From Candidatus Lutacidiplasma silvani (GTDB lineage: Archaea > Thermoplasmatota > Thermoplasmata > Lutacidiplasmatales > UBA184), in the NCBI GenBank assembly GCA_022750295.1, contig JAKIVZ010000016.1:1-52591 (forward strand): a stretch of DNA of 52,591 nt, written 5' to 3'. Both the position numbers and the translations under genes were made by a program. Shown here piece by piece: positions 2,549 to 52,515 of this stretch. How positions within the stretch are numbered: the first letter of the stretch is position 1; every line of letters begins with the position of its first letter. The notes below the pieces were generated by a model. The model did not search any database, was not told where the DNA came from, and was given only the letters and a program-made list of their open reading frames with translations.

Positions 2549-3545
2549 TAGGAGCGCACATTGGAGTCTTACGCGCGTGACTCTTCCGGGTTATCGTCGG
2601 TGAGCTCGCCCGTGGCCCACGGAGCTTCGATCGCAGGAGGGAGCGCCAAATGGGGCGGAAGGTCGCACCAGGGCTCAGTCTCCAATCCGGGGTGTTTCGT
2701 CTCCAAAGTGCGCGACTATTCATTCTTAGATGGATTCAACCGAGACTCCTAGGCAAAGCGGCTCCCCATCCTGGATGGAATCGGGAGATCTCCCAGAGAC
2801 TCTCCGTCGAGAAGTTGTATAACACGAGTTATACGAACCCCATTGGCGGGCACCGGACCGCCGGAAACCGGGCTGGGCCGCTGGGTTCTGGGTCGGGACT
2901 GCGTGGGCAGGGCGGGGTCGATAGGAACCACCCCGTCGTCGGTGATGACGGGAGCAGGCGGTGGGGCGAACATCGAATTCCGTCGTCTGAAGCCCCGGGC
3001 CGACCAATTCCGGCGTTTGATCGTCCAATCTGGGGTCGGCCATGGGTCGCCGTCGGCCGGTCTGGCTCAGTTGTCAAGATTCGAAGTCGAGCGCATTTGC
3101 GACCCGAGCGATAGTCGGAGGCGCGTTCGGTTCAGATCATGTGGCTTCGAGGACCGACCCCCCGTACGCCTCCGACTGCCGGGTCACTCACGCACGCGGA
3201 TTCGCAACTCGCGCTGCAGTCAATATATGAGTATACATATGTGGATTAGCACCTGCGAAGCGAGTCGAGCGTGTAATTTGACCCTTCGAGTGCTCGGGGG
3301 CGAAGTACCCGTACGCCCTCGAATTGATCGGTACTTGTGGCGTGCAGGTCGGCGGGTTCGTCCCCCGATCCTATTCACGTAATTCCAAGACGGGGACGGG
3401 CCGGAGATCGATTGAGGCCGTTCCGGCTTACGAGGGTGCGGGGATGCCGGGCCAGAGGTGGGAGGTCGAAATTCCGGTCGCCGCGGAATCGCGCGAGCTG
3501 TCGCAACTCCGACCCCGTGCCGCTCCGTCGAATACGTCGGGCGCG
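2549..3545. other. Gene-free kilobase with inverted repeats
   Basis: No open frame here carries recognisable protein signal on either strand. Visible structure includes an inverted repeat GTATAAC-ACGA-GTTATAC at 2817-2834 and an A/T-rich patch ATATATGAGTATACATATG near 3223-3241 that looks like a promoter or operator with no obvious gene behind it. The stretch may be a degraded gene or a regulatory/ncRNA region. Confidence 0.5.
2817..2834. repeat. Inverted repeat GTATAAC-ACGA-GTTATAC
   Basis: Seven-base arms GTATAAC and GTTATAC are exact reverse complements separated by ACGA. The site is A/T-rich within a GC-rich gene-free region, so it looks like an operator or recombinase site. No regulated gene lies directly beside it. 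Confidence 0.5.
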
Positions 3546-3556
3546 ATTTATATATC
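3546..3556 (+). promoter_or_regulatory. TATA box for the sulfatase-like gene
   Basis: GATTTATATATC is a near-consensus archaeal TATA element. Its centre is about 26 bases before the GTG at 3576, which points to a leaderless mRNA and excludes the longer in-frame reading that begins upstream. Confidence 0.7.
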
Positions 3557-3575
3557 AGTAACTCACGCGACGGCC

Positions 3576-5195
3576 GTGGCGGCGGGAGCCTCGGGAGGCC
3601 GGAACGCCCGTCCCCCGGATGTCGTGGTCGTCGTTCTCGACTGCGTGCGGGCGGGGTCGTTCCCCGGTACCGGGGGCCCGGAAGGGGCGTTTCCCGTCCT
3701 GGAGGCGATCCGGGACGAGTGCACCGTGTTTACGCACGCCTCGACGGTGGCGCCCTGGACCCTCCCCTCTCATGCCAGCCTGTTCACAGGTCGGTACCCC
3801 TGGGAACACGGGGTCTTGGGAGAGGGGCGGCTCCAGTACGAGAGCTCCCTCCCGACCGTCGCCGGAGCCCTGCGGGAGGCCGGGTACGCGACACTCGGGC
3901 TGAGCGCGAACGGGCTCCTCTACCCCCTGTTCGCCTCGGCGGGCTCGTACGAGCAGTTCCGGTGCGCCGAATGGTGGGAGAAGTCGTTTCGGTGGATTCG
4001 CCCCGAGTCGCTCGACCGGGCCACCGCCACGCGACCCCGGAACGGACGGAACGCGCTCGCCATCGTCGCTCGAGGGAGTCTTCCCGGCCACGATCGCACC
4101 CCCTCGCTCTCGTACCTTCGACGGGAGGAGGCGACCGGGTCGCTCCCGGACGCCATCCGGTCGACTCGACCCGAGGAGGTTGCGCTGGGTCGGACGGCCG
4201 GAACCCTCGCGTGGGCCGGGCTCGACCTCTCGAACCGGCTGGCCCGGGTCTTTCGGACGCCCGATGACCCGCATCCGCTTCCCATCGCACCCTGGATCGA
4301 GCCCACGTTCGCGGCCTGGCTCGCCGGGCAATCTCCGGAGCGGCCGATCCACTGTTTCGTCAACTTCCTCGACGCCCATGAGAAGTATCTCAGCGACGCG
4401 GCGCTCGTGCGCGGGCTCGGTGACTGGGGGAAGTTCGTCCGGATCCCTCAAAATCCCCGGCTGTGGCTCGAGGGGGACTGGTCCCCGTCGCCGGACGAGC
4501 TCGCCCTCCTGCGGCGCCTTTACGAAGCCACCATCGATCGGCTGAGCCGCCGGGTGGAAGGCCTCATCTCAGCCCTGAAGGCCGCTGGGCGATGGGAGAA
4601 CACGTTGCTCATCGTGACGAGCGACCACGGCCAAGCGTTCGGGGAGGAGGGCGAACTCTTCCACGAGCGGAGCCCGATCGAGCCGCTGCTCCACATTCCG
4701 CTCTGGGTCCGCTGGCCGCGCGGGTTCGAGGCCCCCCGGGTGCGGACGGACCGGGTCAGCGTGATCGACATCGCGGCCACCGTGCTGGTGGCGGCCCACA
4801 TGGAGAACCCGTTTCCGAACTCCGGGGTTCCACTGCAGACGGTCCCAGCCGAACCTCGAGAGCCCCCGGTACTGGCGATGGCCGACGGGTACCCGACGAT
4901 CGAGAACTACCGCAAACGGCTCGACGGAGACCTCCTGCGCCGTCTCCAGCGTTCGTACGGCGTGGCGTACCACGTGGGGGTCAAGGCGATCGTCGGAGTC
5001 CAAAATGGAGACATCCGAACGTTCCGCGTGGGCTCCGGCTCGGAGTCGGCCTCGGTTCCCGGGAGTGGAACCGATGCGGCGACGGCCCGAGCCACCGATG
5101 CGGCGCGAGACGTGGCGGAACTCCTCCGCCGGGCCGCCGAGGGAACGATGGATTCGTCGGTGGAGGACCGGCTCCGATCGTGGGGCTACCTATGA
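3576..5195 (+). CDS. Sulfatase / alkaline phosphatase superfamily hydrolase
   Basis: A 539-residue member of the sulfatase branch of the alkaline phosphatase superfamily. The N-terminal metal ligand motif is PPDVVVVVLDCVRAGSF, the active-site loop is APWTLPSHASLFTGRYPWEHGV and the distal metal site is LLIVTSDHGQAFGEEGELFHE. The Cys/Ser of classical formylglycine sulfatases is not in the usual C-x-P-S-R form, so it may act as a phospho- or sulfo-hydrolase or transferase with the loop threonine or serine as nucleophile. No signal peptide is seen. It is the first gene of the surface-glycan block and is followed after 150 bases by the GT39-like gene, so a role in modifying glycans or lipids is likely. 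The GTG start at 3576 is set by the TATA box. Confidence 0.8.
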   Translation: MAAGASGGRNARPPDVVVVVLDCVRAGSFPGTGGPEGAFPVLEAIRDECTVFTHASTVAPWTLPSHASLFTGRYPWEHGVLGEGRLQYESSLPTVAGALREAGYATLGLSANGLLYPLFASAGSYEQFRCAEWWEKSFRWIRPESLDRATATRPRNGRNALAIVARGSLPGHDRTPSLSYLRREEATGSLPDAIRSTRPEEVALGRTAGTLAWAGLDLSNRLARVFRTPDDPHPLPIAPWIEPTFAAWLAGQSPERPIHCFVNFLDAHEKYLSDAALVRGLGDWGKFVRIPQNPRLWLEGDWSPSPDELALLRRLYEATIDRLSRRVEGLISALKAAGRWENTLLIVTSDHGQAFGEEGELFHERSPIEPLLHIPLWVRWPRGFEAPRVRTDRVSVIDIAATVLVAAHMENPFPNSGVPLQTVPAEPREPPVLAMADGYPTIENYRKRLDGDLLRRLQRSYGVAYHVGVKAIVGVQNGDIRTFRVGSGSESASVPGSGTDAATARATDAARDVAELLRRAAEGTMDSSVEDRLRSWGYL

Positions 5196-5345: not shown

Positions 5346-8129
5346 ATGGATGACGCGTCGAACGAGTTGGACGAAATCCACGCCGCGCGACAGGCCGCGG
5401 GGAGAGTCCAGGCCCTCCGTGCTCGCGGGATTCCGTTCGACCCGGTCACCCAGATCGTGGCGCTCCGGAAGTCGCTGTCCGGGGCGGGCCCGGAGAGCAC
5501 CGCCCGCCTCGCGGCGGCGCTCGAAACCACCTGCGACCGGGTCGAGGTGACGTGGAACGAACTCGAAACCCTCCGGCCTTCGATCTCCCGCCTCTCCATC
5601 GCAGTCCGGCGTCGTTGGGGCCGGTCGGCGCCTTCCCTCCTCGTCGCGGCGGAGTTCCTGCGAACGTGGAGCGACCCGTTCGTCGATTCCGCCGGCATCG
5701 AGACCCGGCTCGAGCTGGCCCGGCAAGCGCTGACCGAGCTGCAGCATCAGCTGGGGGTGGAGGCGGGTTCGTCAGCCGTGACCCCGAGTGCGGCCCCGAC
5801 GCGACCGTCCGCGCCGGTGGCCCCGAAGCCCCCAGCCGCCCCGCCAGCCTGGTCCGAGCGGCCTCCGTCAGCGGCCCCGACTCGTCCGAGGGTGTCAGCC
5901 CCGGCGATTCCCGCGCGTCGACCCGTCCAATCCTCCCCGAGCCGTCTGTCGGACTCTCCGGTGGCATCTCCCGGGGCGCCTCCGGGGCCGATTCCGCAAC
6001 CCCTCATCGCCTGGCTCCAGACCGCGGGCGGAGCGACGTTCCTCGTTGTCGGGGTCCTGGTCCTCATCGGGGCGTATGACCGCCTCCACGCGCTCGGCGC
6101 CCTCTCCCTGTGGAACGACGAGGCGCAGTCGACCCTCCTCGCGTTCAGCGTCCTCCGGACCGGGTATCCGGTGATTTCGTCGCAGCACCTGATCAACAAC
6201 TACGAGCCCCTCTATCCGTACTTTGAGGCCGCTTCGATCCGCCTGTTCGGACAGACGAACTTTGCCTACCGACTCCCGTCCGCCTTCTTCGGGATTGTCC
6301 TCATCCCGGTCGCCTACTATGTCGGCTCCCGACTTCGGGACCGGTACGTCGGGATCTCCCTGGCCGCGATGACGGCGTTCTCCTCGGAGTTCATCGCGTG
6401 GTCGCGCCAGGCGCGGTGGTACATCCTCCTCGTCCTGATCATGGCCATTGCGTTCCTCTTCGCCACCGCGTGGGCCCGGACCGCAGTACGACGGGAACGC
6501 TGGCTTCTATTCCTCGGACTCGTGGCGCTGGCGGCGTTGGGGTGCCTTGCGAGCTTCGGCCTGTTCCTCGTCTACGTCCCCGCCATCTTTGCCGGCGGAT
6601 TCACGTACTATGTCGCCCGCCACTGGGAGGGAATCCGACGGCAGTTCGGCCTCCCGTCGATCTCGGACGCACCGCTTCCGCGGGCCCGCTTCCTTTCCTA
6701 CCCGCAACGCCGTTGGCTCGCGGTCCTACTGCCACTTGGGGTTCTGGGATTCGTGGCGATCGCGTACGCCTCGCTTTCTCAACTGACGACGAGACTGATC
6801 TCGAGGGTCGTGGGCTTCACGCCTTACCCCATCGTTTGGAGCTCGAACTTTGGGACGTACCTTGCCCAGTACTACCTTGGGGTTCTCGTCCTCGTGGCCA
6901 TCGGGGCCATAGTCATCGTGATTCGCCGGAACCCCGTCGAACTGGCCCTCCTAGCGTTCTGCGTGACCGGGTTCGTTGGAGTCAGCACACTCGCCTCCCT
7001 CACGAACGATATCGCCACCATCGACTCGTCGTTCGAGCGGCACCTGGTTCCGCTGCTCTTCTTCCTGTTCCTCGTGGCGGCGATCGGGATCGTCGAGATC
7101 CTTCGGTACGCCCGCCAACTTCTCACCCACGTGCCGACGTTCGGCCGGCCACGCCGTCGGGCTTGGCGCCCTCTCGCGTTCGGGGTCATCGTCGTGGTCC
7201 TCCTGGTGCTTCCAGGAGTGGTCGTGCCGTCCGGGCAAACCGTCAATCAGCGACCTGCCGCGTTCCCCACCGGGACGCTCATCGCTTGGAACCCATTCTC
7301 CATCGACCCCAAGCAGCCCTCGATCATCTACCAGGCGGAGCAGGCCGATTACCAAGGTGCGGCGGAGTACGTGTTGGCCCACCGGACGGCCAATCAAGTC
7401 CTGGCCGCAACCAATCCGGGTCCCCCGCAAATCTACCTGGGACAAGTACAGTACTGGGTTCGGGGAAATCCGGACAACAATACGATCGTCTACGTCGGCG
7501 GTCAGGCAACTTTCTTCCAGACAGACTCCGACCTGATCGACAACACGTCCTTGATGGAGGGGATGCTGTTCAACAGCTCCGGCTGGTTCATCAGTGACGT
7601 GCCGGCCGTTCCGTCGCCGAAGGGGATTGTCTTTCCCGGGGCGATGTGGGACTTGCTGATTCTATTCTTCTCGAACGTCACGGCCGCAGACGGTCCGTCG
7701 ATCGTACTGTACGAATGGAACCAGACTTCCGTTCCCGGCATGCTCCTCACCCTCGGGCAAAAGCTCGCTCCGCTCCACCGATTCGGCACCAACTTGTCCG
7801 CCATTACCGACTGGGCGGCGACATCGGGCGTCACCTGGAGCCAATGGCGCGACTTCTTCGTCTCGATCGAACCGTATTTGGTCCGTCACGCCTCCAGCTC
7901 CGCGCTCCCGCTCGCCGTGCTCTTCCAGCTCTACAACGACAATCCGTCCTTGCAGAGCGCGTTCCCGCAGGTCCTGACGGGGATCCAGCACAATCCGACG
8001 GAGATCAATCAAGGGGCGCTGGTCCAGTGGGCGATTGGCACCGCCGAAGGCAAGAATCCGACGCCCGTGGTCCCGGGAGCCAGGGCGATGTTGGCACCCT
8101 ATCTTTCCGAGTATGAGTCCGATGAGTGA
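5346..8129 (+). CDS. GT39-like membrane glycosyltransferase with long soluble N-terminus
   Basis: A 927-residue protein in three parts. Residues 1-145 are soluble and largely helical. Residues 145-220 form a proline/alanine/serine-rich linker. From about residue 225 there is a polytopic membrane region with roughly a dozen hydrophobic segments. Just after the first membrane helix, WNDEAQSTLLAF and NNYEPLYPYFEAASIRLFGQTNFAYRLPS have the acidic loop and layout of GT-C enzymes of the GT39/ArnT/PMT type, which use lipid-linked sugars at the outer face of the membrane. The C-terminal 300 residues look extracellular. The soluble N-terminal domain is unusual for GT39. The ATG follows the sulfatase stop by 150 bases, and the stop overlaps the next gene. 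Confidence 0.75.
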   Translation: MDDASNELDEIHAARQAAGRVQALRARGIPFDPVTQIVALRKSLSGAGPESTARLAAALETTCDRVEVTWNELETLRPSISRLSIAVRRRWGRSAPSLLVAAEFLRTWSDPFVDSAGIETRLELARQALTELQHQLGVEAGSSAVTPSAAPTRPSAPVAPKPPAAPPAWSERPPSAAPTRPRVSAPAIPARRPVQSSPSRLSDSPVASPGAPPGPIPQPLIAWLQTAGGATFLVVGVLVLIGAYDRLHALGALSLWNDEAQSTLLAFSVLRTGYPVISSQHLINNYEPLYPYFEAASIRLFGQTNFAYRLPSAFFGIVLIPVAYYVGSRLRDRYVGISLAAMTAFSSEFIAWSRQARWYILLVLIMAIAFLFATAWARTAVRRERWLLFLGLVALAALGCLASFGLFLVYVPAIFAGGFTYYVARHWEGIRRQFGLPSISDAPLPRARFLSYPQRRWLAVLLPLGVLGFVAIAYASLSQLTTRLISRVVGFTPYPIVWSSNFGTYLAQYYLGVLVLVAIGAIVIVIRRNPVELALLAFCVTGFVGVSTLASLTNDIATIDSSFERHLVPLLFFLFLVAAIGIVEILRYARQLLTHVPTFGRPRRRAWRPLAFGVIVVVLLVLPGVVVPSGQTVNQRPAAFPTGTLIAWNPFSIDPKQPSIIYQAEQADYQGAAEYVLAHRTANQVLAATNPGPPQIYLGQVQYWVRGNPDNNTIVYVGGQATFFQTDSDLIDNTSLMEGMLFNSSGWFISDVPAVPSPKGIVFPGAMWDLLILFFSNVTAADGPSIVLYEWNQTSVPGMLLTLGQKLAPLHRFGTNLSAITDWAATSGVTWSQWRDFFVSIEPYLVRHASSSALPLAVLFQLYNDNPSLQSAFPQVLTGIQHNPTEINQGALVQWAIGTAEGKNPTPVVPGARAMLAPYLSEYESDE

Positions 8130-44200: not shown

Positions 44201-44304
44201 CGACGGGTCCATCTGTGCCACCGGCCGCGAGGGCCAGGACGCACGTACAGGAGGGTGTCGAGACCCGGGCCCGGATTCGCGAACCCAAGGAGGAGGCAAA
44301 CAAC

Positions 44305-45237
44305 GTGAACGACGAGCGAGAGGCTTCGAGGACGCCGAACTACCTGCGACCGTGTGTGGGCCTCGATGTCCACAAGGGCTCCATCACCGCGACTCGGATG
44401 GAGCCCGGAGGGAAGGTCTCGAAGACCTGGACCCTCCCCACCACCCGGTCGGAGATCCACGCTCTCGCCGAAACCATCCCCGCCCACGTCCCGGTCGTTC
44501 TCGAGGCCAGCACGGCCGGGAAGGCGGTGGCGATGGTCCTGAACGCGATCGGATGCGAGCTCCACATGGCCGCGCCCAACAAGATCCCCAAGCCCGCGGT
44601 CAAAACCGACAAGCGGGACAGCGTCCGTCTTGCTCAGCTCTTCCAGAGCGGATCTATGCCGGAGTGCTACGTCCCTCCCTCCGAGATCGAGCACCTCCGA
44701 CTGCTGACCCGGAACCGCCGGGATCTCGCCCAGAAGGTGACCCTCGTCAAGAACCAGGTGCGCGCCCTCGTGACCCGGAACCTCCTCGCCGCCGAGATGA
44801 AGGGAGTCTCCCAGTGGTTCGGAGTCGCCGGGCTTCGCAAGCTGGTCCGACTCTCACTTCCCTCGGGGGATCGTGCCCACCTCGCCCGGTATCTCGAGCA
44901 GCTCAAGCTCCTCGCCCAGCAGGAGGAGTCGATGCAGATCGAGCTCGCGCAAGTGGCCCGAGATCGTGCGGACATCCAGCTGCTCATGACCATCCCCGGC
45001 GTCAGCTTCTACAGCGCCGTGGGGATTCTCGCCGAGATTGGCGACATCCGGAGATTCTCCGACAAGCAGCACCTGGCGTCCTACGCCGGGCTCGTTCCGA
45101 AGGCCGACAACAGCGGGACTCGAGTCGCCGAGCACCAGCCTCTAAAGAAGGGCAACGCCGTTCTGAAGGCGTTCCTCTTCACGACCGTTATGGCGATGCT
45201 GAAGGCGTCCCAGGAGACTGCTGTCACGCGATTCTAG
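44305..45237 (+). CDS. IS110-family transposase, truncated by an amber stop
   Basis: A DEDD recombinase. The N-terminal RuvC-like domain has VGLDVHKGSI, VVLEASTAGKAVAM and KTDKRDSVRLAQLFQSG with the catalytic acids. The C-terminal domain has LLMTIPGVSFYSAVGILAEIGDIRRFSDKQHLASYAGLVPKADNSG with the expected serine. The 310 residues stop at AVTRF then TAG (45235-45237), exactly where relatives have tyrosine, and the same frame continues with the conserved C-terminus (PPMLAQIAAARKLSGEVWMILT) to 45537. GTG at 44305 follows a strong AAGGAGGAGG. TAG is an ordinary stop elsewhere here, so this is a nonsense mutation rather than recoding. Confidence 0.8.
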   Translation: MNDEREASRTPNYLRPCVGLDVHKGSITATRMEPGGKVSKTWTLPTTRSEIHALAETIPAHVPVVLEASTAGKAVAMVLNAIGCELHMAAPNKIPKPAVKTDKRDSVRLAQLFQSGSMPECYVPPSEIEHLRLLTRNRRDLAQKVTLVKNQVRALVTRNLLAAEMKGVSQWFGVAGLRKLVRLSLPSGDRAHLARYLEQLKLLAQQEESMQIELAQVARDRADIQLLMTIPGVSFYSAVGILAEIGDIRRFSDKQHLASYAGLVPKADNSGTRVAEHQPLKKGNAVLKAFLFTTVMAMLKASQETAVTRF

Positions 45238-45537
45238 CGCGAAAAGGCGAAGACCCGGCCTCCGATGCTGGCCCAGATCGCCGCCGCCCGCAAACTCTCC
45301 GGCGAGGTCTGGATGATCCTGACCTACCAAGTGCCGTACCGGGACGAGGACGCCACCCTGACCGAGAAGAAGGAGCGACGAATGCAGAAGATCGCCGAGG
45401 AGCCGACTCCCGAGGTGTCGGTGGCAACCCTCGACTCGCTGGCCGATTGCCTGATCCACAAGGCCGATGTGCTCGATCACCTCGAGCAAGAGGCCGGAGA
45501 TTCGGAACTCGGTCGGGAGGTCGGCAATGACCGCTGA
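45238..45537 (+). pseudogene. C-terminal remainder of the IS110 transposase
   Basis: In frame with the transposase after the TAG. It encodes the family C-terminal helix PPMLAQIAAARKLSGEVWMILTYQVPYRDEDATL and a further unconserved acidic/basic tail to a TGA. An ATG at 45265 could start a 90-residue fragment, but it would lack all catalytic residues. Confidence 0.7.
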
Positions 45538-45565: not shown

Positions 45566-45807
45566 AGGAGGACCCGCGGTTGGCGGGTGGACTGAGTTGG
45601 GGCGCAGCTCAGGTCGAATAGCCCTACGGAGAGTCCTCCTTCCCACCGATGCAAGCCCCGGATCGCGCGGCCCTAGCGCAACTTCAGCCCGCGTGGCTGG
45701 TCGCGGAGATCGTAGACCCGGGTCGCCCTATGGTCGTGGACGCGAGGGGCGAGGTCGGCGGGAGCGCGCCCGCGCGAAATGGCTTCGGCCGCCTTGAGAT
45801 GAGTTGG
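45566..45807. other. Gap between the IS element and the island operon
   Basis: Nothing convincing. A frame opening with ATG at 45649 (MQAPDRAALAQLQPAWLVAEIVD) has a plausible N-terminus but runs into the next gene in another frame and is not recognised. Confidence 0.3.
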
Positions 45808-45817
45808 GCATTTATTC
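45808..45817 (+). promoter_or_regulatory. TATA-like element for the island operon
   Basis: GCATTTATTC lies about 26-30 bases before a TTG at 45840 that is in frame with the first island gene, pointing to a leaderless TTG start. Confidence 0.45.
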
Positions 45818-45839
45818 AAGCCGTCATTGGGGACTCTCG

Positions 45840-46823
45840 TTGCCGACGTCGACATGGGCAGGCTTTCTTCTTGGATCCCGCGGCGACTACGTACCGCCAG
45901 GAAGGGTGGCCCGGGGTTACGAGGAAGAGAGCTGGGGTCAACTCACCGCACTGAGAGCGGCCCTACCAGACCTTCCTGCCTTGTTCGAGGTCCCGATTGG
46001 TGTTCTTCAGGCAGGAGAATGCCCAAACGGCTCCCGCGTGTACTTTGAGCTCACCACGAATGTTCCTAGCGATGCGAACGCTCGTGCTCCCCAAGGGAGT
46101 CTCTTCGGGGAACCGTGCAACCTAACGCGACAAGATGCCGGCATGGTTTGGGACCGTGCAGTCAAGTCAGCCAACCAACACCTGAACAGGCATTTGCCGA
46201 ATCTGGCGGTTCCGTTGATGATCGCGGAGGTCCCGCAACAGGCCCTTCTTGATCACTACAATCGACAGCTTGCTGCGCTGGGTTCAATGGCAAAGTTTGG
46301 CAGGTTCTCTCTTGATTCGTACGAGCTGAAGGAGTCGCCCATCCCCCGTCGTAGGCGCCCATCTGGAGCGTCGGCCGCCCCGTCCAGTCCGACCACACCG
46401 GGACCGAATGTAGCCCCGGATGGCCACTGGATCGCGTTTGATGCAGTCCCTGCCTCGGGCGGAATCTTCGAGGCGAAGCTGACGCTCCCACCTGACAACG
46501 TGCTTCGAGGCATCTTTGCGGCGTATGCCTTGCTTGCGGAATGGTACTTCGAAATCGACTTCGACCTCGGGGTCTCGCTTTCCTGGAACGGTACGGGTGG
46601 TCGACCCCATGCTGCACCTCACCTAATAGGGCAAGCCGATCGCCAGCACTGCCTGTCAAACATTCCGCTGCTCCGCACTCTGATTGTCCAAGGGAGGAGG
46701 GCCTCCGGACTTCGCCGTAGGGGGGGCATTCAGTGGCACGACGTGTTAGACCAGCCGGAACGACCGTTGCGCCTCTCCACCTGTCCCACCTGCAAATTCT
46801 TCAGCCCGTGCAATCCAAGGTGA
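45840..46823 (+). CDS. Island gene A, unrecognised
   Basis: A 327-residue protein of unknown function. It appears to have two parts, residues 1-175 (EESWGQLTALRAALPDLPALFEVPIGVLQAG ... WDRAVKSANQHLNRHLPNLAVPLMIAEVPQQALLDHYN) and 195-310, joined by an R/P/S/T-rich linker. The second part contains GGIFEAKLTLPPDNVLRGIFAAYALLAEWYFEIDFDLGVSLSW; FEAKL could be the E-x-K half of a PD-(D/E)xK nuclease site, but the partner aspartate is not evident. The C-terminus ends with TCPTCKFFSPC, a three-cysteine cluster. Base composition is less GC-rich than the genes to the left. Start by TATA spacing; a TTG at 45804 is an alternative. The stop overlaps gene B as GTGA. Confidence 0.5.
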   Translation: MPTSTWAGFLLGSRGDYVPPGRVARGYEEESWGQLTALRAALPDLPALFEVPIGVLQAGECPNGSRVYFELTTNVPSDANARAPQGSLFGEPCNLTRQDAGMVWDRAVKSANQHLNRHLPNLAVPLMIAEVPQQALLDHYNRQLAALGSMAKFGRFSLDSYELKESPIPRRRRPSGASAAPSSPTTPGPNVAPDGHWIAFDAVPASGGIFEAKLTLPPDNVLRGIFAAYALLAEWYFEIDFDLGVSLSWNGTGGRPHAAPHLIGQADRQHCLSNIPLLRTLIVQGRRASGLRRRGGIQWHDVLDQPERPLRLSTCPTCKFFSPCNPR

Positions 46824-47593
46824 ACGCCGTGGGGGAGACCCTCGCAGGGATTCCGCACCTGAAACTGCCCCCGGCGAAGCTTCTCAACGTGCTGGACGCG
46901 GTCAAACGAGCCGGCCCGGAGCGGCCTTTGGTCGTTGCGGACATACGCGGCCTGTTTCCGGGAATGTCGGAAAAGAGCGTGATACGAGGCATGGCACTCC
47001 CGGCTGGCACACGCCTGCAGTTAGTCCGCGCGACTGATGATACAATCGTGCTAGCGCCGAACGGCGGAGGCGCGTTCCTATCTCGACTCAGCGGGGCCGA
47101 CTTCGTTGCGTTTGCGATTCGGGCGACAGCGATCACACGATATGGCATCCGACCAGCCCTACTGGCCGATCCGGGGGGGATGGAGTTCGAAATCTCTGGG
47201 ATGGGCAAGCGCAGCCGTGAACCCATTGCCAGATTCGTTTCATATCTTCGGTTTTTCCAGGAGCGGCGACTCGCTTGGTCTGCCGCCGGATTCAGGGTAC
47301 TTCCGGGTCCGAACTATCGCACCAAGCTGGACCTCAGAGAAGGCCGCTCGCTAATCGACGAAGAGCTTCCCAAGGGGAGGCTACTCTCGCTCGACGAGGC
47401 GAGGAGCGCGCTCCTTCGTCGACTCTGGAAAGACGGCGTCCTCGCAACGTCGTTCGACGTCGATGATCTCTTCGCCCAGTTGTACTCGGGCGACCGACCC
47501 CCGATCCAGCTCTGGAAACAGGCCGTACGCGGGATTGACGAGCTACTTATTGAGGGGACCTCCTACGGGAGCTTGATTGTCGCCCAAGAGTAG
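46820..47593 (+). CDS. Island gene B, unrecognised, possible winged helix
   Basis: A 257-residue protein without a recognised family. AKLLNVLDAVKRAGPERPLVVADIRGLFPGMSEKSVIRGM reads like a helix-turn-helix, with short helices and a turn before SEKSVIRGM. The C-terminal half holds a second helical unit (LDEARSALLRRLWKDGVLATSFDVDDLFAQLYSG ... QLWKQAVRGIDELL) of similar pattern. Likely a DNA- or partner-binding adaptor for the ATPase that follows. Start is a GTG overlapping the gene A stop as GTGA. The end overlaps gene C by 17 bases. The three genes are therefore coupled. Confidence 0.5.
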   Translation: MNAVGETLAGIPHLKLPPAKLLNVLDAVKRAGPERPLVVADIRGLFPGMSEKSVIRGMALPAGTRLQLVRATDDTIVLAPNGGGAFLSRLSGADFVAFAIRATAITRYGIRPALLADPGGMEFEISGMGKRSREPIARFVSYLRFFQERRLAWSAAGFRVLPGPNYRTKLDLREGRSLIDEELPKGRLLSLDEARSALLRRLWKDGVLATSFDVDDLFAQLYSGDRPPIQLWKQAVRGIDELLIEGTSYGSLIVAQE

Positions 47594-48734
47594 AGGACCA
47601 CGCCGGACAATCACCGTCCGGGATCTCGAACAGACGCCGTTCGGTGAGTTCACTGGCGTAGCCGCAGCGACAACCGGCAAGAAAACGTTCTTGAAACCTC
47701 GCTGGGCCGACGGGCTGATCCTGGGGACGATTGCTGAGCGTTCCCGGAAGACCGGAACCATTTGGATGCTGGCCGGAGACTATGGCACAGGGAAGACTTG
47801 GCTGCTAAGCTGGTTACTCCGTGACGGCCCGTCCCGTTTGGAGGCTTCTACGGGTGAGAAGTGGTCCGTCGTAGGGCTCTCATTCCTGCCCTCCGCGTCG
47901 CCCGATCGCTTGTTTTTCGAGGCGTTCTTCCGAGGTTCCGAGGCGGAACGATCCGCGATTCTTCGTCGGCGTTCCGAACAGACGCTACTGACTCCGAGCG
48001 GAAGCGAGTACGATAGGGCCATCAACGCGATTCTCGCCGATCCGGGGGCTTGGCAAGTGCTCACGGGGCACGCCTCCACCTTCCCGAAGCGGCGTGGGGG
48101 CCGGCCGTTCCCGCCATGGAAAAGCCCCGTGGCCCGTCTCGGCCTCTTCCGGTCTTTCCTCAGGCGCCTAAAGGACGCGGGGTCCGACCACGTCCTCATT
48201 CTGGTAGACGAGTTCGAAAACACGGTCCTTGGCACAGGCCCGTCGGGCCTTCAGAGACTCACCCATTTCTTCCGCCAGCTCATCGACCACCTCCAATCCG
48301 ATTTCGACCTTCCGAAGGTGCAGATAGTGCTCTCGGTCACTGCCGACGCAGCCAAGCGAATCAAGCCAGGTCAGGACTCTCAGGCGCTCACCCGATCGGG
48401 GAAGGTACCCGCAGCCGTACAGGCCTTCCAGGAGCGGCTCGGGGAGACGGTCTACGTCCCGCCCCTTGAGCTCGATTCCGCCCTCGACATTGCAAAGTTT
48501 CGGATTGAGTCGGTGGAGGGCGGAGACCGGGACCCTGCGCGACCGTACATACCATTCGAGCGTACAGCGGTTGAGCTTGCGTTTGGGGCAAGCAATCGAC
48601 TAGTCCGAGTGTTCTGCGTCCTTCTCGAGGCGATGTACGAGAAGGCGTACACAACGAAAGCCCCGCTGGTGACCACGGAGCTCGCCCGCGAGGTGTTGAG
48701 GGCAAGGGGTCTCGAGGCCCGACCGCGATCCTAG
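47577..48734 (+). CDS. Island gene C, P-loop ATPase
   Basis: A 385-residue ATPase. Walker A is IWMLAGDYGTGKTWLLSWLL near residue 65 and Walker B HVLILVDEFENTVLG near residue 205. A possible sensor segment is VQIVLSVTADAAKRI near 250. The N-terminal TPFGEFTGVAAATTGKKTFLKPRWADGLILGTIAE and the DEFENT Walker B recall ATPases of phage-defence systems such as the BrxC/BrxD group, but the resemblance is by eye only. No transmembrane or nuclease domain is seen. The start TTG at 47577 lies inside the end of gene B. It ends 30 bases from the convergent methyltransferase. Confidence 0.6.
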   Translation: MSPKSRGPRRTITVRDLEQTPFGEFTGVAAATTGKKTFLKPRWADGLILGTIAERSRKTGTIWMLAGDYGTGKTWLLSWLLRDGPSRLEASTGEKWSVVGLSFLPSASPDRLFFEAFFRGSEAERSAILRRRSEQTLLTPSGSEYDRAINAILADPGAWQVLTGHASTFPKRRGGRPFPPWKSPVARLGLFRSFLRRLKDAGSDHVLILVDEFENTVLGTGPSGLQRLTHFFRQLIDHLQSDFDLPKVQIVLSVTADAAKRIKPGQDSQALTRSGKVPAAVQAFQERLGETVYVPPLELDSALDIAKFRIESVEGGDRDPARPYIPFERTAVELAFGASNRLVRVFCVLLEAMYEKAYTTKAPLVTTELAREVLRARGLEARPRS

Positions 48735-48764
48735 CGATCCCGGCAATCGCGAGTCGAGCCCATC

Positions 48765-50012
48765 CTAGTTCGGCTGGAAGGTAAGCAGCGTCTCGTGAAG
48801 GATGGGGTCGGTCGAACTCCGTCGGCGCGAAGCTTGAAACCGTCGTCGAATGCGGTCGGTGACCGGGGGCATAAGCGAAGAGAGCCCCACGGAGCCTGCG
48901 AGATGCTCTGCAATGGACGTGAGCGGCACGCGTTGACGGCCCATCTCAGGATCACCCAGTACCACCCCGATTGTCCCGTCCCCAGAAACGTGGGCCGCGC
49001 AGGCGACGAGGAACTCGCGGAGGTCTGCGAAGTATTGGAGTAGTGCCTGGAACCGGAGACGGTCCCGGCTCTTCAGGGATCGGTACCACGCCTCTCGAGC
49101 GAACCGACGAGGGAGCTCCTCCACTTCATTGAGGTGACCAAGACGACCCATCATCTCGCTACGCGAAGCCGCGGACTCATCCCTGATAGCGAGGGCGCGG
49201 GATTGAAGGGAGGCGGCCCGCACGTAATCGATTCCCAAGCCGTACGGTGGTGAGGACAGGAGAACATCCACCTTATTCGCGGGCCATGTTTTTTCCGCAG
49301 TGGCGTCACCCTTCCAAACGCCGATGCCCGCAGTCGAAATGCCGAGTCTTCCGAGCGCACCTTGTGCGGCCAAGACGCGGGTTAGACGAGATCGGTAAGT
49401 CGCGAGCACCTCTCCAGGCAGGACACGCGGCACCCCTCGGGCGAGCTTGGAGTGGGTAGGGACCATGACGGTCGGATCGGCGCCGGAAACGTCCCAGCAG
49501 GTCTGTGAAAGGGCGACCCAGAGGTGGGCGAAGTAGGGTGACTTGTGTTTGGACTCGACGTGAACGTCCAAGTCCTGAAGGGCTCGGAGCGTCGACGGTT
49601 GGTACCAGGTTGACCAGCTCTTCCACGTCCACCGAGGACTCGTCCTGTACGAAAGCGGGTTTGAGTTCAGTTCGGACCGAAGTCGACGGAGGGACCCGGC
49701 GCTTAGTCGAGTCACCTTTGCCCGGGAGAGAAGAGTCGAGGAATCGAGAAGGTCGGATCCCATGACCTCGAAGCCTCGGGCACGGGCGACAAGGAGCGTC
49801 GTACCCGATCCGCAAAACGGATCGTAGAAGCGAAGCCCCTCCCCGGTGGTAGCCCCGAAGGCGGGGAGGGCAATTTGATCGAAGTAGTGCTCCGCCAAGC
49901 CAAGCGCCATCTTGGCCGGGAAGCGATGGATTCGGTCGGCCACCGATAGGTTCCCTTTCCACCGAGGGACGATTGCGGGGAGACCCCCCGACGATGGCGG
50001 GCTTGGGGGCAT
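48765..50012 (-). CDS. DNA methyltransferase (N4-cytosine/N6-adenine type)
   Basis: A 415-residue amino-methyltransferase. The N-terminal VPRWKGNLSVADRIHRFPAKMALGLAEHYFDQ resembles the substrate-region motif before the AdoMet site. Motif I is LRFYDPFCGSGTTLLVARARGFEVMGSDLL, and motif IV VDVLLSSPPYGLGIDYVRAA reads S-P-P-Y, as in N4-cytosine enzymes. DGTIGVVLGDPEMG may be a later motif. ATG at 50012 is set by a TATA-like GGGTTATGC about 28 bases upstream; a TTG seven codons earlier is possible. No restriction endonuclease is adjacent. It is convergent with the three-gene island operon, suggesting a shared system. Confidence 0.8.
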   Translation of the reverse strand: MPPSPPSSGGLPAIVPRWKGNLSVADRIHRFPAKMALGLAEHYFDQIALPAFGATTGEGLRFYDPFCGSGTTLLVARARGFEVMGSDLLDSSTLLSRAKVTRLSAGSLRRLRSELNSNPLSYRTSPRWTWKSWSTWYQPSTLRALQDLDVHVESKHKSPYFAHLWVALSQTCWDVSGADPTVMVPTHSKLARGVPRVLPGEVLATYRSRLTRVLAAQGALGRLGISTAGIGVWKGDATAEKTWPANKVDVLLSSPPYGLGIDYVRAASLQSRALAIRDESAASRSEMMGRLGHLNEVEELPRRFAREAWYRSLKSRDRLRFQALLQYFADLREFLVACAAHVSGDGTIGVVLGDPEMGRQRVPLTSIAEHLAGSVGLSSLMPPVTDRIRRRFQASRRRSSTDPILHETLLTFQPN

Positions 50013-50035
50013 GAGGGTTGCGAGGGCTGACAAGC

Positions 50036-50045
50036 AGCATAACCC
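50036..50045 (-). promoter_or_regulatory. TATA-like element for the methyltransferase
   Basis: GGGTTATGCT on the minus strand is centred about 28 bases before the ATG at 50012. Confidence 0.45.
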
Positions 50046-51327: not shown

Positions 51328-52515
51328 CTACTGAAGTTCTTCAACGACACCAGCCACATCTATCGCAATCCCGGTCCCGGTCCCGATCGAAGTCAGTTTG
51401 CGTGTAACGGTTGTTCCAGATTTTACGAGGGCAAGAGCTGAGGCCTGGAAGGTCGCGTTCAGCGCTGCGGTTCCCGTCGCACTTACCGAGCGAGTGTTGC
51501 TTGCCCAATCGGTCCAAGTAACGGTGTAGGTGATGGTGCCTCCCGGGGTGGTCACGGCTGATTCCAGAATCACTGCGGAGATGCGCATTACCGCGTTATA
51601 AGCAGGCGCAGTCGCCAAAGTAACCGCGGATCCGTCAACGGCGGCGAGTCCGGATCTGCTATCCAATCCCAGAATTGATGGGGTACCCAACCCAGTGGTC
51701 GACTGGCCGATGTTCAAAACGGCGTCATTTTGAAAAATCAACCCAATCGCGATCGTCAGCTGACTGGAGAAGGAGGTGTTCAAGAGAGGATTCGGATTGG
51801 CGGAACTGCTCGAGCCGTAGAAGGCAACCTCTTGCAGCGATAGGTTGTAGTTTGACCCCGCGGCAGAAGAATCAAAGAACACAGGAACCACGAGAGGACT
51901 TGGGTTGTTTTGAACGTAGTATCTCCCGCCGATCACCGTGAGATAGACGGTGTTTCCGGAGGTGTTGTTGACGACCGGCGTGTCGTCGCTGGGATTTTTG
52001 TAGCAATCAAAGAGGCACATCGCTGTCTGCGCTCCTCCCGAGACGATAATCTGCGAGTTCACCGTGACCGAGTACAGGCTGATAGCTTGGGCGTGAAGGT
52101 TCATCCCAGCGTAGGTGCCGCCAATGACCTTCACTCCACCACCGGGCGTTTGCCACTCTAACCCTACTGGACCTCCCGTCCCGGAGTTGGTCACCCAACA
52201 GTTGACCTCAATCAGGATCGAGCCTTGATTCTTGTTCATATTGAGCGCCGCGAACCCGGTATTGGACGTGGCCGTACCATCGAAATCGCAACGTTCGATG
52301 ATCGTAATGTGGCGCGCATCGCTGGCCTGAGAGAGATCTACAACCGCAGTTGCGGAGGTCCCCGCCGAGATTCCATATGAGAAGTATATGTCCCTAATCT
52401 TGATGGCACTCACGCTTGTCCCCCCCGCGCTGTTGAGGGTCAGCATGCTAGTTGCGGCATGAGGAAAGGTGGACTTGGTCGTGACGATTGTGCCGTCGAA
52501 CTCGGTGCTCCCCAA
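51328..52515 (-). CDS. Beta-helix, tail-fibre-like protein
   Basis: A protein of at least 395 residues, rich in S/T/N/G, with repeating short strands such as HITIIERCDFDGT, GVKVIGGTYAGM, VYLTVIGGRYYVQ and LSLQEVAFYGSS that form a parallel beta-helix. The C-terminal ITYTVTWTDWASNTRSVSATGTAALNATFQASALALVKSGTTVTRKL looks like a small beta-sandwich found at the ends of phage tail or appendage proteins. GC content is clearly lower than in the rest of the window. The start given is a TTG, and the frame continues open to a TAG at about 52588, so the true start may differ or lie beyond a frameshift near the window edge. It may belong to an integrated virus or be a secreted adhesin. Confidence 0.55.
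   Translation of the reverse strand: MGSTEFDGTIVTTKSTFPHAATSMLTLNSAGGTSVSAIKIRDIYFSYGISAGTSATAVVDLSQASDARHITIIERCDFDGTATSNTGFAALNMNKNQGSILIEVNCWVTNSGTGGPVGLEWQTPGGGVKVIGGTYAGMNLHAQAISLYSVTVNSQIIVSGGAQTAMCLFDCYKNPSDDTPVVNNTSGNTVYLTVIGGRYYVQNNPSPLVVPVFFDSSAAGSNYNLSLQEVAFYGSSSSANPNPLLNTSFSSQLTIAIGLIFQNDAVLNIGQSTTGLGTPSILGLDSRSGLAAVDGSAVTLATAPAYNAVMRISAVILESAVTTPGGTITYTVTWTDWASNTRSVSATGTAALNATFQASALALVKSGTTVTRKLTSIGTGTGIAIDVAGVVEELQ

Follow-up and report, generated by a model that had tools for sequence, protein, structure and literature searches.

Which system is formed by three overlapping genes and a neighbouring DNA methyltransferase gene near the end of a contig from the archaeon Candidatus Lutacidiplasma silvani? 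The genes are here called A, B, C and M, and the window, meaning the whole stretch of DNA that was analysed, is the entire contig JAKIVZ010000016.1, 52,591 bases of a 2.1-Mb genome. A preliminary description of the block, made from the sequence alone, had proposed a defence system in which the methyltransferase marks host DNA, and this interpretation is supported by the present analysis. With the balance tipped slightly in its favour, M-A-B-C is judged to be a horizontally spread, restriction-modification-like defence cassette with a Cas4-family effector. This reading is based on the order of the genes, which is conserved, on the membership of the A relatives in the Cas4 family, on the ATPase family of C, on the presence of M at all three uncut loci, and on the deviant base composition.

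45804-46823, forward strand: gene A, 339 aa, candidate Cas4/Csa1-like nuclease, TTG start codon uncertain
46820-47593, forward strand: gene B, GTG start at 46820 chosen
47577-48734, forward strand: gene C, 385 aa, predicted AAA+ ATPase
48765-50033, reverse strand: gene M, 422 aa, N4/N6-type DNA methyltransferase

A check of the open reading frames (ORFs) bore out the overlaps that had been described (GTGA between A and B; 17 bases, 47577-47593, between B and C), the Walker B motif DEFENT of C, and the convergent N4/N6-type methyltransferase 30 bases from C. The frame of B is open from 46733, and its start was set at 46820 because a GTG there overlaps the TGA of A and because relatives of B begin near that position.

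Conserved gene order and distribution

The preliminary description had proposed a search for conserved synteny, which gave six loci with A-B-C in the same order and with a recognisable B: the window and the five listed here. A-B-C is a conserved unit in archaea, two bacterial groups, and one virus contig.

L199: virus contig with tail genes (Baseplate_J, 9.8e-35), M-A-B-C
L201: genome of the bacterial class of L125, M-A-B-C
L125: Dehalococcoidia metagenome-assembled genome (MAG), A-B-C, contig ends inside A
L151: Actinobacteria MAG, A-B-C, contig ends inside A
L044: genome G436, a member of the window's phylum, A-B-C, contig ends inside A

With C of the window alone as query, one distant relative was found among 101 genomes (own included), in genome G086 of the same class, and an alignment of these two sequences matched four other genomes among 292. 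One of the four is G436, in which two A-B-type genes precede C, and G086 has a comparable pair. Plasmid tblastn searches gave eight haloarchaeal records with C of the locus L026, one Haloarcula record with C of L151, one Natronococcus record with C of L199, and none with C of L044. A C alignment that included two haloarchaeal rows found 89 relatives in a species-genome collection; 80 of them were retained, which represent 78 loci, and the A profile matches three of these loci, L119 (on the same contig as L026), L125, and L151. The B profile used for the 78 loci held haloarchaeal rows, so that haloarchaeal B sequences match it by construction; B of L125 and L151 was unmatched there, and the kinship of both rests on other B comparisons, including hhalign and hmmsearch. 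Tighter alignments then gave the virus contig L199 and L201. A B profile matched 2 of 294 genomes of the class of L125 and 1 of 198 of the class of L151, query genomes counted, and weak matches to window B in G026 and G168 have no C beside either.

Within the window's class, 83 of 330 genomes have a match to a broad C profile at E<=0.001. The two strong matches, in the window genome and G086, are rows of that profile and so match by construction, and the next best has an E-value of 2.8e-14. Twenty loci were fetched from the other 81 genomes and none proved to be A-B-C, nor did the locus of G221. A C-like ORF was found in 14 of the 20, in no case with A, B or M (E<=0.1) among the ORFs listed within five places of it, and these loci were rejected as A-B-C. 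One of the 14, L100 (3-10845), is a defence-like cluster in which a helicase, a type III Mod-like methyltransferase, a UvrD-Cas4-like fusion and a pair of BrxD-like ATPases are read by eye; most of the others share a layout of their own (by ORF lengths only) and look like a different, core ATPase. Matches to the C profile in G442 and G355 were also read and are not A-B-C; further genomes with a match are G342, G421, G504, G415, G154, G114, and G211.

The ATPase and its partner proteins

Gene C encodes, as judged from its sequence, an AAA+ ATPase related to BrxD (ORC/Cdc6 type), with Walker A GDYGTGKT from position 67 and Walker B LILVDEFENT from 207. Alignment of window C with its relatives gave an hhalign E-value of 1.5e-9, and a hmmsearch with a profile that excludes the window ranked it best of 307 window ORFs (9.9e-7), which makes its predicted membership of the C family statistically secure; L026 was also excluded from the A and C profiles used on the 307 ORFs. 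In Pfam, window C reaches AAA_22 at 7.6e-6 (26.7 bits, just under the cut-off of 27) and BrxC_BrxD at 0.015, with relatives at 5e-4 to 2.2e-13. The BrxD equivalog NF033438 has a cut-off of 350 bits, below which window C lies at 17.7 bits and L044, L026, and two haloarchaeal homologues at 18.3 to 49.9 bits.

Gene B belongs to a family with the signature EKSVxRGM...NG. Window B aligns with its relatives, the window left out, at hhalign E-values of 3.6e-13 and, in another set, 2.6e-12, and is the best of the 307 window ORFs by hmmsearch (2.5e-10, window again left out of the profile), so that its assignment to the B family can likewise be called statistically secure. The preliminary description had recognised neither A nor B. 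For B this holds: no match was found at E<=0.001 in Pfam (window, L044, L125, L151, L199, L201), PADLOC (window, L125, L151, L199, L201), NCBIfam (window, L044) or PHROGs (window), and window B has none in these four libraries at E<=0.01. A similarity of L199 B to the Pfam nuclease family RE_LlaMI (0.0057, 16.6 bits, cut-off 25) is absent from the other B sequences and was not used. The AlphaFold model of L199 B has a mean pLDDT of 51, with blocks from about residue 190 onward at 67-88. Foldseek found nothing for this model in the PDB at E<=0.001; its matches to ORC1 winged-helix chains are short (TM by target 0.55-0.58, rmsd 3.2-3.4 A) and have E above 3, and they give no more than a hint that the C-terminal part of B is perhaps a winged helix.

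For A, the earlier verdict does not extend to the relatives, which belong to Csa1/Cas4. All five match Pfam Csa1 (L199 6.3e-20, L201 2.1e-17, L044 8.2e-15, L151 1.2e-14, L125 8.9e-20), in L199 over residues 10-320, and these five together with A of L026 score 54.8-88.7 bits against PF06023 (cut-off 27). Window A itself has no Pfam hit, PF06023 included, and gave nothing in the other library searches; the AlphaFold model of it is uninformative (pLDDT 31.6). In a profile search window A comes second of the 307 window ORFs (E 3.6); ranked together with 3000 shuffles it is again second.

Residues 73, 327, 330 and 336 of window A: candidate Fe-S cysteines
E223-x-K225 of window A: candidate E-x-K

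Window A ends in CPTCKFFSPC (Cys327/330/336), a CxxCx5C pattern that only one of the 307 window ORFs of at least 60 aa has within its last 25 residues. This C-terminal triad aligns in the window, L199, L201, L044, L151, and L125, and A of L026 has none; the alignment of Cys73 with the N-terminal cysteine of L199 and L201 is approximate only. The Fe-S cluster of Cas4 is held by four cysteines, one N-terminal and three in a C-terminal triad, and the C-terminal cysteine cluster of window A is best read as the putative Fe-S module of a Cas4-family nuclease. Window A and its relatives also have in common the position before B-C, the E-x-K, and an AAYAL stretch, and the length of 339 aa compares with 337 and 334 aa in two full-length relatives. 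Window A is placed in the family because of its position and cysteines more than its sequence; it is very probably a diverged member of the A family of the relatives and is predicted to be a Cas4/Csa1-like PD-(D/E)XK nuclease.

The methyltransferase and its pairing with A-B-C

Window M matches PADLOC MTase_II (7e-15) and, under the cut-off, Pfam N6_N4_Mtase (3.2e-5). DPFCGSGTT from position 71 is presumably its motif I and SSPPYG from 260 its catalytic motif. An N4/N6 methyltransferase adjoins A-B-C at all three loci that extend past the 5' end of A (the window, L199, and L201); a lack of such co-occurrence in other genomes, which the preliminary description had named as a refutation, was not seen. 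In L199 and L201, M immediately precedes A in the same orientation and opens a compact M-A-B-C operon; in L199 the end of M is the start of A, at 8103, and gaps of 2 and 3 bases follow between A and B and between B and C.

Window M scores highest, at 97.5 bits, with a profile that combines M of L199 and L201 with five plasmid relatives; three other groups give 85.9, 73.5, and 55.5 bits, and the two-row profile of L199 and L201 M gave only 31.4 bits. All five plasmid records matched by window M are also matched by L201 M. In a 30-row tree the three cassette methyltransferases do not form one clade; L209, with a split methyltransferase frame, was excluded from the tree and the profiles.

Several plasmid members of the M subfamily sit in other defence-like clusters, with a CARF protein in Moraxella. 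Methyltransferases close to L201 M occur on plasmids of Moraxella (L207), Bradyrhizobium (L208), Rhizobium (L209), and Sinorhizobium (L210). Three genes follow them: the first has about 320 aa and in L207 reads by eye like a phosphoribosyltransferase, the second is ATPase-like, about 670 aa long and split in L209, and the third has about 310-330 aa. In L207, the one record of the four in which this last gene was tested, it is CARF-family (PADLOC CARF6, 4.2e-123), and L208, L209, and L210 have an annotated thyX in the neighbourhood. Methyltransferases of the f5 family were set aside as core genes and no part of this system; they share a cluster layout, and in the one example tested, L030, it includes tRNA synthetase genes.

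Base composition and surroundings

The ORFs of A, B, C, and M have GC contents of 0.597, 0.612, 0.622, and 0.625, each below all of 26 comparison ORFs (mean 0.689, minimum 0.652), which are mechanical, uncurated longest-ORF picks of at least 250 aa left of 43.8 kb. The block had been described as less GC-rich than other regions of the contig, and this stands; the contrast is smaller in GC3 (0.629-0.720 in the four genes, mean 0.789 and minimum 0.565 in the comparison ORFs). All three uncut cassettes differ in GC from their flanks, with 0.334 in L199 against surroundings of 0.523 and 0.535, and 0.445 in L201 against 0.511 and 0.516. The neighbours of L201 are housekeeping genes (by eye), and the L199 cassette lies among tail genes, as cargo does. 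A scattered pattern across domains together with deviant GC is typical of transferred defence cassettes, and also of mobile-element genes.

The window cassette adjoins an IS110 transposase at 44215-45237 (Pfam 1.6e-20), in agreement with the preliminary description. Its frame stops at 45237, apparent further coding sequence follows at 45265-45537 in another ORF, and the IS110 element at 44215-45537 may be decayed. Also as described, a scan of eight window proteins turned up no PglZ, helicase, PLD or restriction gene. The contig ends 2.5 kb past M, and further parts of the system could therefore lie off the contig. Between M and this end, at 51328-52515 on the reverse strand, a serine/threonine-rich ORF of 395 aa lies in the kilobase of the window where GC is lowest (0.578) and has no match at E<=0.01 in Pfam, PADLOC, NCBIfam or PHROGs. 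In L151, a gene that by eye resembles SRAP-type proteins and a gene for an HNH_5 nuclease (Pfam 1.7e-7) follow A-B-C at 2705-4078. A transglycosylase that neighbours the L125 genes, considered as a link to Dpd, reads by eye as an ordinary bacterial Tgt, and the link was rejected.

Proposed function and alternative explanations

In the proposed mechanism, M would mark self DNA by methylating a base in a host motif, and C, as an ORC/Cdc6-type AAA+ ATPase, would assemble on DNA together with B, which may give in trans the winged-helix DNA binding that C lacks, as the partly confident model hints. On unmethylated incoming DNA the B-C complex would, by ATP-driven assembly of C, load or switch on A, and A, as a Cas4/Csa1-type Fe-S nuclease, would degrade the unmarked DNA. 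Defence, methylation sensing, formation of a B-C complex, and activation of A are all steps that we infer. A wider proposal, plausible but held at somewhat less than even confidence, is that this is an undescribed immunity family in which the CRISPR adaptation nuclease Csa1/Cas4 serves as restriction effector, loaded by an ORC/Cdc6-type ATPase and a new winged-helix partner, and that the C family is a general mark-checking module usable with different marks, as in haloarchaeal Dpd-like clusters. No description of the M-A-B-C combination was found in the literature searched, which covered few subscription papers and no supplements, and an earlier description may exist.

If the proposal is true, it would give solo Cas4 nucleases a definite function beyond CRISPR that can be tested. 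It also suggests a way of working for stand-alone BrxD-like ATPases, which may load a partner nuclease or helicase onto DNA that lacks the mark. Solo Cas4 is described as widespread and, as of 2017, without experimental study in a section of PMC5704561, which also places it next to restriction-modification genes in some DPANN archaea and UvrD-Cas4 fusions beside type III systems. For the BrxD class, assigned to ORC/Cdc6, a loader role is suggested in a passage of PMC12839542.

Several observations weigh against a defence cassette of this kind. Alignment of window A with its relatives is weak (hhalign E 0.0098 over 90 columns, probability 4%), and with a fuller relative set it covers the last 15 residues only (E 0.0066, probability 6%). 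Inspection by eye revealed no defence gene next to the L201 cassette, and the L199 cassette, on a virus contig, is compatible with a viral function. Window M is convergent with C and not co-transcribed with it, and may, to judge from the tree, have been recruited separately, because its branch is very long (7.12) with an unsupported placement (73/36) and because a branch (95/95) groups L199 and L201 M with plasmid methyltransferases to its exclusion. M adjoins A-B-C at three of three loci but forms no single clade, and the pairing with a methyltransferase is therefore supported, common descent of the pair not. No M was seen in the available sequence on the C side in L044, L125, and L151; these contigs end inside A and are therefore uninformative on an M upstream of it. 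L026 has a Csa1 A, a middle gene with no detectable relation to B, and C, and no methyltransferase was recognised in the flanks that were read.

The convergent M of the window, the lack of one M clade, the combination of a Csa1 A and C without M in L026, and the quite different genes that adjoin the M subfamily on plasmids would also suit A-B-C as a self-contained ATPase-nuclease system, for defence or DNA repair, with M an occasional neighbour or a shield for the carrier element. M nevertheless stands beside A-B-C at every uncut locus and in two of the three heads a closely packed operon, and a self-contained system is considered unlikely. A module of mobile elements or viruses, with Cas4, ATPase, and methyltransferase meeting needs of replication, recombination or anti-defence, would be in line with the place of the L199 cassette among viral tail genes, with the IS110 element that adjoins the window cassette, and with the many viral cas4 genes for which anti-defence roles are suggested (PMC5704561). 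This is decidedly unlikely: L201 lies between housekeeping-like genes (by eye), the GC of the L199 cassette is far below that of its virus, as it would be in late-acquired cargo, tblastn with C of L151 and of L199 gave no match in 50,697 phage records, and L199 is the sole virus contig found in seven viral_contigs scans.

A module related to CRISPR adaptation is very improbable. It would account for the Csa1 family of the A relatives, Csa1 belonging to type I-A adaptation, and for the Crenarchaeota locus L159 (9280-13203), in which a wHTH gene and a C-like ATPase directly precede cas1/cas2/cas4-like genes (labels by eye). By eye, however, neither cas1 nor cas2 was recognised next to the cassettes of L199 and L201, no repeats of at least 20 bases were found in the three stretches searched, and to our knowledge a methyltransferase is no part of CRISPR adaptation. 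In L159 the cas-like genes are followed by repeat-rich sequence resembling a CRISPR array (by eye).

Comparison with known systems

The preliminary description had recognised no known system in this combination, and the comparisons agree: A-C matched no known set, and tests for BREX failed. The C relatives resemble BrxD of BREX type 2 (PF10923, NF033438) as BrxD-like stand-alone AAA+ ATPases, whereas BrxD is described as tightly linked to the helicase BrxHI in one part of PMC12839542, and the cassette has neither helicase nor PglZ. No PglZ was found for window A, B, C or M in Pfam, PADLOC or NCBIfam (for M in PADLOC, among the best 25 of its 32 matches), nor for the L199 and L201 cassettes in Pfam and PADLOC (for M, among the matches listed). 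BrxC is given in a passage of PMC12839542 as an ATPase of 1200-1300 residues, whereas C has only 385 aa; M, with 422 aa, is best matched by type II models, and BrxC and BrxX/PglX have no counterpart in the cassette (L201 M reaches PglX at only 0.0018). The main text of PMC12839542, on BREX diversity, mentions Cas4 zero times. Similarity of the C relatives to Shango SngB (1.5e-5, L044) and MADS mad8 (7e-4, L125) in PADLOC is weak, as is that of M to the methyltransferase model mad2 (4.4e-5, 9.1e-6, and 4.4e-5; window M 4.4e-5), and the window, L199, and L201 cassette proteins include no Shango partner and no complete MADS set.

Csa1/Cas4a (PF06023), the adaptation nuclease of CRISPR type I-A, is the family of A in five relatives and L026 and shares the CxxCx5C C-terminus with A of the window and five relatives. 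Cassette A differs from Csa1/Cas4a in that its operon also encodes an ATPase and a DNA methyltransferase, with no cas1/cas2 recognised beside it. Type II restriction-modification is approached by M, best matched by PADLOC MTase_II models, and by the pairing of a methyltransferase with a nuclease, since M stands beside a Csa1-family A in L199 and L201, the family of window A being weakly supported. The nuclease side of the cassette, in contrast, consists of three genes, one of them for an AAA+ ATPase, in place of one sequence-specific endonuclease.

Haloarchaeal Dpd-like 7-deazaguanine clusters have a C homologue as the third gene of a three-gene operon in all eight plasmid records (L061-L068), but their first gene is a transglycosylase (Pfam TGT 1.2e-26, L061) and their middle gene is not detectably related to B. 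Homology of B with this middle gene, or of the L026 middle gene with either, is not significant (E 0.4, 0.055, 0.074), and only C is common to the cassette and the haloarchaeal operons. All eight operons hold a 344-aa transglycosylase, a gene of unknown function of about 299 aa, and a BrxD-like ATPase; seven have a nearby gene annotated as queuine tRNA-ribosyltransferase (DpdA in L061, the one tested, NCBIfam 5.2e-82), and queuosine-precursor genes occur in L061, L065, and L068. These records are read as a cluster for 7-deazaguanine modification of DNA that has an ATPase of its own. In 32 of the 78 loci the gene immediately ahead of the B-position gene encodes a transglycosylase. Relatives of C thus occur with other partners in haloarchaeal loci and in L026, and the C family therefore serves several systems.

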